Origin: Archaeoglobales archaeon
GTDB lineage: Archaea > Halobacteriota > Archaeoglobi > Archaeoglobales > Archaeoglobaceae
Assembly: GCA_003662995.1 (NCBI GenBank)
Contig: QMZC01000012.1
Span: 1-37,901 of the forward strand
Length of the DNA: 37,901 nucleotides
Direction: 5' to 3'
Notes under the pieces: model-generated
Told to the model about the DNA's origin: nothing
Database searches by the model: none
Seen by the model: the letters and a program-made list of their open reading frames with translations, nothing else
In this document: piece after piece, positions 35,990-37,515 of the stretch
Layout: the number at the start of each line of letters is the position of its first letter
How positions within the stretch are numbered: position 1 is the first letter of the stretch
Position numbers and translations under genes: made by a program

Positions 35990-36057
35990 GATATTTTAAT
36001 TAACATAGGTAATATTATACTAGTTTTATGGTGGTTTTTCATAATGACACCGAAATG

Positions 36058-36067
36058 TTTATATATA
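36058..36067 (+). promoter_or_regulatory. TATA box of the CopG-ftsZ operon
   Basis: TTTATATATA preceded by CCGAAATG (BRE-like) is the strongest promoter-like sequence in the window. Transcription is expected at about 36087-36092, leaving a leader of about 80 nt to the CopG ATG at 36172. Confidence 0.6.
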
Positions 36068-36070
36068 TCC

Positions 36071-36103
36071 TGTCCGACAAATGTATGACAAATGAGGTAC
36101 AAA
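36071..36103 (+). repeat. Three tandem 11-bp repeats TGN4ACAAA, probable operator
   Basis: TGTCCGACAAA (36071-36081), TGTATGACAAA (36082-36092) and TGAGGTACAAA (36093-36103) follow one another without gaps. TG and ACAAA are invariant. The array begins 3 bp after the TATA box and covers the expected transcription start. An 11-bp period puts every copy on the same face of the DNA, which suits cooperative ribbon-helix-helix dimers. Confidence 0.65.
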
Positions 36104-36131
36104 TGGTACCTGATGTGCCCCTATGAGGTAC
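36092..36131 (+). repeat. Direct repeat ATGAGGTAC at 31-bp spacing, with GGTACC inverted repeat
   Basis: ATGAGGTAC occurs at 36092-36100 and 36123-36131, 31 bp apart (about three helical turns). The first is also half of the inverted repeat AGGTAC-AAATG-GTACCT (36095-36111). The surrounding leader (about 36105-36155) is much more GC-rich than other spacers here and has CCCC/GGGG blocks (36118-36121 and 36137-36141) able to pair in RNA. Confidence 0.5.
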
Positions 36132-36171: not shown

Positions 36172-36345
36172 ATGAGAAAGATATCAATTCGACTGACAGA
36201 ACAGCATTATGAATTTCTCGAGGATTTGGTCGAGAGCGGAGAGTACGCTTCGATTAGTGAAGCAATTAGGGATGCAATAAGAAAGCTGATTGCAGAGAAA
36301 ATGGATACCTTGGAAAAATACCAGAAATTAAAATCTTTTAGTTGA
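36172..36345 (+). CDS. CdrS-like CopG/ribbon-helix-helix regulator
   Basis: 57 residues from the ATG at 36172 (GTGGTGTTGAAG upstream); an in-frame GTG at 36145 would add nine basic residues. The strand RKISIRLTEQHYEFLEDL and helices EYASISEAIRDAIRKLIAEKM make the ribbon-helix-helix fold. The gene is 9 bases before ftsZ. In haloarchaea the CopG-type CdrS is encoded beside ftsZ2 and controls cell division, and the same pairing occurs in other euryarchaea, so this is the likely orthologue. The tandem 11-bp repeats in its promoter may be its own binding sites. The cdrS name is by analogy. Confidence 0.82.
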   Translation: MRKISIRLTEQHYEFLEDLVESGEYASISEAIRDAIRKLIAEKMDTLEKYQKLKSFS

Positions 36346-36354
36346 GGTGGTAGT

Positions 36355-37515
36355 GTGAAGTCTTTTGTTAGTAAAGCCCAAGAATTTTATGAAATGGAGA
36401 GGAGGAATAGGAGAGATAATTTTGACATTGAGGACTTTGGTTTGCCAAAGATAGTTGTTGTTGGTTGTGGAGGTGCAGGAAACAACACAGTTAGCAGACT
36501 GAAGCAGTTGGGTGTTGACAGCGCAACAACTATAGCAATCAACACGGACAAGCAGCACTTACTAATGGTTAAGGCTGATAAGAAGGTTTTGATTGGCAGG
36601 AGTTTGACAAAAGGTTTGGGAGCAGGAGGCTATCCTGAGATTGGAAGAAAGGCTGCTGAGTTAGCAAGGAGCACACTTGAAGATTTGTTGTCAGATGCTG
36701 ATATGGTATTTGTTTGTGCTGGTATGGGTGGTGGTACTGGAACTGGAGCTGCCCCGGTTGTTGCTGAAATTGCTAAAAAGCAGGGAGCGATAGTTATAGG
36801 AATGGTTCAAACTCCGTTTAAGGTTGAGAGGGCAAGAATACTCAAGGCTGAGGAGGGCTTAGAGGAATTGAGGCAGAATGCAGATACAGTTGTTGTTTTA
36901 GACAACAACAAGTTGTTGGAATATGTACCAAATCTACCAATTGAGCAGGCTTTTAGTGTGATGGATCAGCTTGTCTCTGAGACGATTAAGGGCATATCGG
37001 ATACGATAACAAAGCCCTCTTTGATGAACATCGACTTTGCTGATGTTAAGGCTGTTATGGGGTATGGCGGTGTTGCAGTAATGCTTGTTGGAGAGTCGAA
37101 GTCACAGTCGAAGGCTAAGGATGTTGTTAGGGATTGCTTGAGCCATCCTTTGTTGGAAGTTGATTATAGGGGGGCGACAGGAGCGTTAATACACATTTCT
37201 GGGGGTCCAGATTTAACAATAAAGGAGGCTGAGGAGATTGTAAACAATCTTACCTTTGAGATTGACGCCAGAGCAAACGTGATTTGGGGGGCGAGAATAG
37301 AAAAGAACTTTGAGGGGATTGTGAGAGTTATGGCTATCATGACAGGCGTCACATCACCAAATCTGCTGAGCAGTGAAAAGGAATACACAAAAACTTATAC
37401 AACCCATACAAAAGCTAAAACCATCAAGAAGAATTCAATTAGCCAGAAAATCAATCGTGAGATAATAAAGCCAAAGAAAAGGGCAAAGGTGAAGATGGGA
37501 ATAGAATTTCTCTAA
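36355..37515 (+). CDS. ftsZ: Cell division protein FtsZ
   Basis: 386 residues from a GTG with GAGGTGG upstream. The tubulin-like GTPase motifs are intact: [17 protein letters not shown] (34-49), the signature [14 protein letters not shown] (123-136), and the T7 loop [11 protein letters not shown] (225-235) with catalytic acids Asp227 and Asp230. A 25-residue charged N-terminal extension precedes the core. After about residue 345 a basic, Lys/Thr-rich linker leads to the conserved-type end KMGIEFL, a possible SepF-like partner-binding tail. Coupling with the CopG regulator suggests the FtsZ2 clade, though motifs alone do not settle FtsZ1 or FtsZ2. Confidence 0.96.

Follow-up and report, generated by a model that had tools for sequence, protein, structure and literature searches.

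The locus and its promoter

The window analyzed here is a stretch of 37,901 nucleotides from an Archaeoglobales archaeon (Archaeoglobaceae; GenBank assembly GCA_003662995.1, contig QMZC01000012.1, positions 1 to 37,901 of the forward strand), and it encodes an orthologue of cdrS, a small ribbon-helix-helix (RHH) protein gene, followed on the same strand and after a gap of 9 bp by ftsZ (Table 1), a gene order that every archaeal outgroup locus checked shares. For the regulator, the most likely start codon is the ATG at 36172, where its orthologues begin. Pfam, the relatives in the PDB (ParD and NikR) and the fold matches all place an RHH DNA-binding domain in CdrS: the monomer model (pLDDT 84) is laid out as an RHH fold, and its best fold matches are the RHH chains of ParD, while the ribbon strand forms only in the dimer. 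Identity to the methanogen and haloarchaeal forms of CdrS is 35–40%, and the profile and the gene order, conserved across the phylum, may place them in one orthologous lineage.

TABLE 1. Features of the cdrS-ftsZ region, in positions of the window.
Feature	Position	Strand	Basis
Divergent winged-HTH-like gene, 99 aa	35617-35916	-	Weak CggR_N and HVO_A0114 matches, below cut-off
Archaeal promoter, BRE-like CCGAAATG then TATA box	36050..36065	+	Sequence
TATA box TTTATATA	36058-36065	+	Best YTTAWATA match, 8/8
Putative operator unit 1, perfect palindrome TGTCCGACA	36071..36079	.	8/8 to TGTCNGACA
Putative operator unit 2, TGTATGACA	36082..36090	.	7/8 to TGTCNGACA, 11 bp after unit 1
Putative operator unit 3, weak copy TGAGGTACA	36093..36101	.	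5/8 to TGTCNGACA, 11 bp after unit 2
cdrS orthologue, 57-aa RHH protein	36172..36345	+	Pfam RHH_1 2.2e-6, above cut-off
ftsZ (386 aa), the operon's second gene	36355..37515	+	Pfam Tubulin 1.6e-45, FtsZ_C 2.7e-34

An earlier note on this DNA had described three gap-free tandem copies of TGN4ACAAA after the TATA box, and these are indeed present, as TGTCCGACAAA, TGTATGACAAA, and TGAGGTACAAA, head to tail, filling positions 36071–36103. An adjacent pair of such matches (≤1 mismatch) is found at a single place in the window, which is this array, and two matches occurred in 0 of 100 dinucleotide shuffles. The TATA box and unit 1 are 5 bp apart. Transcription in Archaea usually starts about 26 bp after the center of the TATA box, which would place the start site at approximately 36088, within unit 2, and the units would span roughly −17 to +14.

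Conservation in Archaeoglobales

An RHH protein search of 57 genomes of Archaeoglobales returned 50 orthologous cdrS loci, representing 15 genera, and in all 50 of these ftsZ is located directly downstream. Every one of the 50 promoters possesses a perfect TGTCNGACA, positioned 173 to 50 bp before the start codon, compared to a mean of 0.13 of 50 (maximum 1) in shuffled upstream regions. Conservation in related genomes, which the earlier note had named as a check on its proposal, is thus evident for this core, and the phasing of the units runs through the phylum. The conserved element is a 9-bp palindrome with a period of 10–11 bp, and, as it is TGTCNGACA that is kept in 50/50 promoters, the palindrome, and not TGN4ACAAA, is the conserved unit. 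The latter was therefore dropped as a consensus; it is a degenerate form, comprising what the perfect copy and the two weaker ones still share in this genome.

Chains of 2–5 units in 10- or 11-bp steps are present in 34 of the 50 promoters, so that at least two dyad-symmetric units share one DNA face, as in tandem RHH operators, while 16 promoters possess one clear unit, so an extended array is dispensable at some of them. The proposed period of 11 bp survives as a strict rule in the methanogen relatives, but the Archaeoglobales mix 11 and 10 bp (44 and 26 of 70 spacings, respectively). The site is placed at the own promoter of the RHH-encoding operon, the first perfect unit following the TATA box by 5–6 or 16–21 bp, most often by 6 or 17, and these two favored offsets are one turn apart. 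Weak in-phase units are seen in the relatives as well as in the window.

One explanation to consider is that the array arose by chance or by neutral tandem duplication and has no function, as there are just three units here, the third of them weak, and the array escapes Tandem Repeats Finder at score 30 owing to differences in the central part of the copies. We consider this extremely improbable, given the 50/50 conservation in promoters whose flanks have diverged, the strict phasing in 35 other leaders and the near single-locus specificity (see below). The array is real and looks functional.

Arrays in methanogens and other Archaea

A CdrS profile detected relatives in 205 of 296 genomes of the phylum (E ≤ 1e-6; the alignment used in the phylum, outgroup, PDB and viral searches has one residue wrong in row 13), and ftsZ follows the RHH gene in all of the 40 loci sampled and in 4 further archaeal loci. 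The arrays in 35 non-haloarchaeal leaders are typically of six units, and of up to nine, strictly 11 bp apart, with site-to-site distances peaking at 11, 22, 33, 44, and 55 bp (66, 68, 53, 28, and 27 pairs, respectively), the 66 pairs at 11 bp comparing to 0.165 in shuffles. A few loci (e.g., L160, L161, L170, and L180) have short arrays, of one to four units. The unit columns in the 35 methanogen-type leaders are symmetric about the center, as for a symmetric dimer. The identity of the center base also varies along with the strand predicted to contact the DNA: Archaeoglobaceae, where the CdrS strand reads K-S-R, have G/C at the center of 63 of 64 perfect units, and the methanogen type, where it reads R-T-R, has A/T in 33 of 40, a match that is just suggestive because these sequences share descent. 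In one outgroup cdrS leader (L170), the units make a near-perfect palindrome of ~36 bp, at the middle of which two TGTC units flank a GAGCTGCTCATGAGCAGC-like sequence.

The array of most methanogen-type leaders begins ~30 bp after the TATA box, and in methanogens it reaches to ~10 nt from the start codon, inside the transcribed leader, so it might work in the mRNA, as a leader element for translation or transcript stability. Leaders also fold better than shuffles (mean z of −2.3 and −3.3), and a covarying hairpin is present in 15 Archaeoglobales leaders. However, palindromic units alone raise fold scores, each unit has dyad symmetry and the spacing follows the turns of the DNA helix, and the matching pair at the haloarchaeal ftsZ1 (see below) is upstream of the TATA box, outside the transcript. 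As to the window's leader, it folds no better than chance (z of −0.59) and a search of Rfam gave no match, and thus neither a known RNA family nor a significant fold was found in this genome. A role in RNA is, overall, very unlikely.

The hairpin of the 15 leaders (genera g2, g9, and g13; e.g., L036:1663-1772:-) is a strong one, located downstream of the operator and ahead of the start codon of cdrS. In alignment A4, 90% of the cells pair between columns 36–46 and 60–71, both sides change in 6 of the 11 pairs, and the invariant ACA/TGT pairs are the operator half-sites. This hairpin is not evident in the window's leader.

Specificity of the motif

The genome from which the window comes possesses 15 exact copies of TGTCNGACA, versus 35 for the reversed control, and, with the contexts read by inspection, the cdrS copy alone looks promoter-bound. 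A regulon in this genome, which the earlier note had suggested looking for, was rejected on the strength of these exact copies, and in this group the array looks like a near single-target, autoregulatory element. Among 197 genomes, two perfect units 11 bp apart are found, outside haloarchaea, at cdrS in every case except one. Likewise, three-unit arrays (≤3 mismatches) occur at 16 places in 33 genomes, of which 15 are the cdrS-ftsZ promoter (control, 0), and the sixteenth (G108:C1:21952) resembles a simple repeat. No phased pair precedes the second ftsZ of Archaeoglobales, which was rejected as a target because no site was found there (one such locus, L240, is without a clear start).

Genomes without a cdrS match present the converse case. 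Among 20 of their ftsZ loci, drawn from 19 genomes, a phased pair is lacking in 18 and a single one is present in each of the other two, and apparent degraded remnants of an array can be seen by eye in two loci of this type (L210 and L211). One deletion that removed cdrS along with its leader could account for some of this absence.

Comparison with haloarchaea

Published work has already described the CdrS-FtsZ pair and how widely it occurs (Darnell 2020, PMC7439475; Liao 2021, PMC8406309), and the haloarchaeal CdrS-FtsZ2 system resembles the one described here in that a small RHH gene directly precedes ftsZ and a symmetric motif has been reported. In Haloferax, CdrS binds the ftsZ1 and dacZ promoters, as determined by ChIP-seq, its motif is described as symmetric, and its sites are mostly upstream of the TATA box and seemingly activating (PMC8406309), whereas the array in the window is downstream, at the own promoter, and nearly the sole one in the genome. 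In addition, the cdrS promoter is absent from the 18 Haloferax CdrS ChIP sites (PMC8406309), and so both sign and target differ there.

At the ftsZ1 target, 11 of 12 haloarchaeal promoters possess GTCNGAC-N4-GTCNGAC, a matching 11-bp pair, just upstream of the BRE/TATA (mean of 0.23 in shuffles), and the same pair is present in 4 of 12 dacZ promoters (0.21 in shuffles). The connection of the ftsZ1 pair to CdrS is strong but not closed, because the Haloferax motif was compared by its description (symmetric) alone. This pair, located at a CdrS ChIP target, together with the gene order in every relative and the lack of arrays where cdrS is missing, supports the link between array and CdrS that the earlier note had drawn.

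Separately, allowing one mismatch, GTCNGAC-N4-GTCNGAC is found 17, 40, and 41 times in three haloarchaeal genomes (G078, G145, and G177), versus 4, 4, and 2 for the control, which suggests a real CdrS regulon in these species.

The haloarchaeal cdrS leaders contain no perfect TGTCNGACA. In its place, inverted repeats of the type GTAAGAC...GTCTTAC are seen (e.g., L172-L179 and L181), and these are a candidate site for CdrL, another RHH protein, which in Halobacterium binds the cdrS-ftsZ2 promoter (PMC7439475). This precedent bears on whether a regulator other than CdrS binds the array in the window, either the product of the divergent and adjacent winged-HTH gene or another RHH protein, further RHH genes being present in the genome. 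The published account, however, confines CdrL to Halobacteria (PMC7439475), the HTH neighbor is found beside cdrS in one of the 50 Archaeoglobales loci, the window's own, and was rejected as a ligand because it is not conserved in the other 49, and the presence of the array tracks cdrS. We thus rate another ligand as very unlikely, on a par with a role in RNA, and CdrS as very probably the ligand of the array.

Proposed mechanism

The reading we favor is that the array is, probably, the operator by which CdrS represses its own cdrS-ftsZ transcript. A division operon would then be governed by a tandem RHH operator of the autoregulatory kind, on the opposite side of the TATA box from most haloarchaeal sites. 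We infer that CdrS is the protein that binds, cooperatively and with a single dimer on each unit, and that it represses instead of activating. One CdrS dimer would occupy one TGTCNGACA, inserting its two-stranded ribbon into the major groove, with contacts through K3, S5, and R7, and adjacent dimers, 10–11 bp apart on the same DNA face, would assist each other's binding. Such a row of dimers, over approximately −17 to +14 and beside the TATA box, would block the assembly or entry of RNA polymerase. With CdrS scarce, the operon would be on, and with the build-up of CdrS it would turn off, and this feedback would keep the ratio of FtsZ to CdrS fixed, setting the dosage of FtsZ.

As to the sign, repression is predicted from the position of the array downstream of the TATA box, unlike the upstream haloarchaeal sites, and, should CdrS bind, we regard repression as the strongly favored outcome. 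Activation of cdrS-ftsZ by array-bound CdrS is conceivable, given the apparent activation of ftsZ1 by CdrS in Haloferax: there ftsZ1, whose haloarchaeal promoters bear the matching 11-bp pair, falls upon cdrS-ftsZ2 knockdown (PMC8406309). That pair, however, is upstream of the BRE/TATA, while here and in the methanogens the units are downstream, over or after the start, a position from which archaeal factors usually repress (PMC8406309), and so activation appears unlikely.

A broader scenario, which we offer tentatively and with somewhat less than even confidence, is that of a switch shared by the whole phylum. Anything from one to nine dimers of CdrS would line the promoter and leader of cdrS-ftsZ, and the number and quality of the units would tune the sharpness of the shut-off of FtsZ dosage. 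In haloarchaea this switch would have been rewired, with the pair moved to ftsZ1, upstream of the TATA box, as an activator site, and the own promoter given to CdrL.

Related systems and significance

The Arc, MetJ, and CopG repressors, which are often autoregulatory, likewise place RHH dimers in tandem along short sites at regular intervals. Their sequences and repeat lengths differ from those of the array, the fold matches of CdrS to 1bdv and 1ea4 are weak, and we know of none of the three that controls a cell-division operon. Another example is RelB of Escherichia coli, dimers of which bind adjacent TGT...ACA pseudo-palindromes (TTGTAATGACAT and TTGTAATTACAA) on one face, with essential spacing, and repress their own operon (PMC2812701). 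However, the relO operator consists of two 12-bp units and involves the toxin RelE as a co-repressor, while here there is no toxin, and up to nine units are present in relatives. A further example is SegB of Sulfolobales, also an archaeal RHH protein with palindromes upstream of its own cassette, but its 13-bp TCTAGASTCTAGA sites are scattered on the chromosome for segregation, and the system is segAB, not ftsZ (PMC12284271).

Searches of open-licence papers turned up no account of the operator or its phased arrays, none of autoregulation by CdrS beyond haloarchaea, and no binding, footprint or expression data for Archaeoglobales or methanogens. Thus, while the regulator is known, the sequence of the operator, its phased form, the depth of its conservation and its near single-target specificity appear undescribed. 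The control of FtsZ amount in Archaea is largely open outside haloarchaea, and the array offers a concrete candidate operator along with a candidate ligand, a combination simple enough to assay with a single small protein and a short piece of DNA. The division circuit predicted for methanogens and Archaeoglobales differs from the haloarchaeal one in target and, probably, in sign, and a row of six to nine units, with its strict 11-bp packing, would make a good model of cooperative RHH assembly.

Similar arrays in viruses

No viral relatives of the Archaeoglobales CdrS were found, and a wider CdrS set recovered ten, mostly antitoxin-like, none of them with arrays. Separately, with no convincing RHH gene beside them, 11-bp arrays of a TGTCNGACA-type palindrome are present in virus-like contigs (L347, L354, L360, and L341, and the related group L362/L364/L375), where they extend to up to 14 and 8 units.
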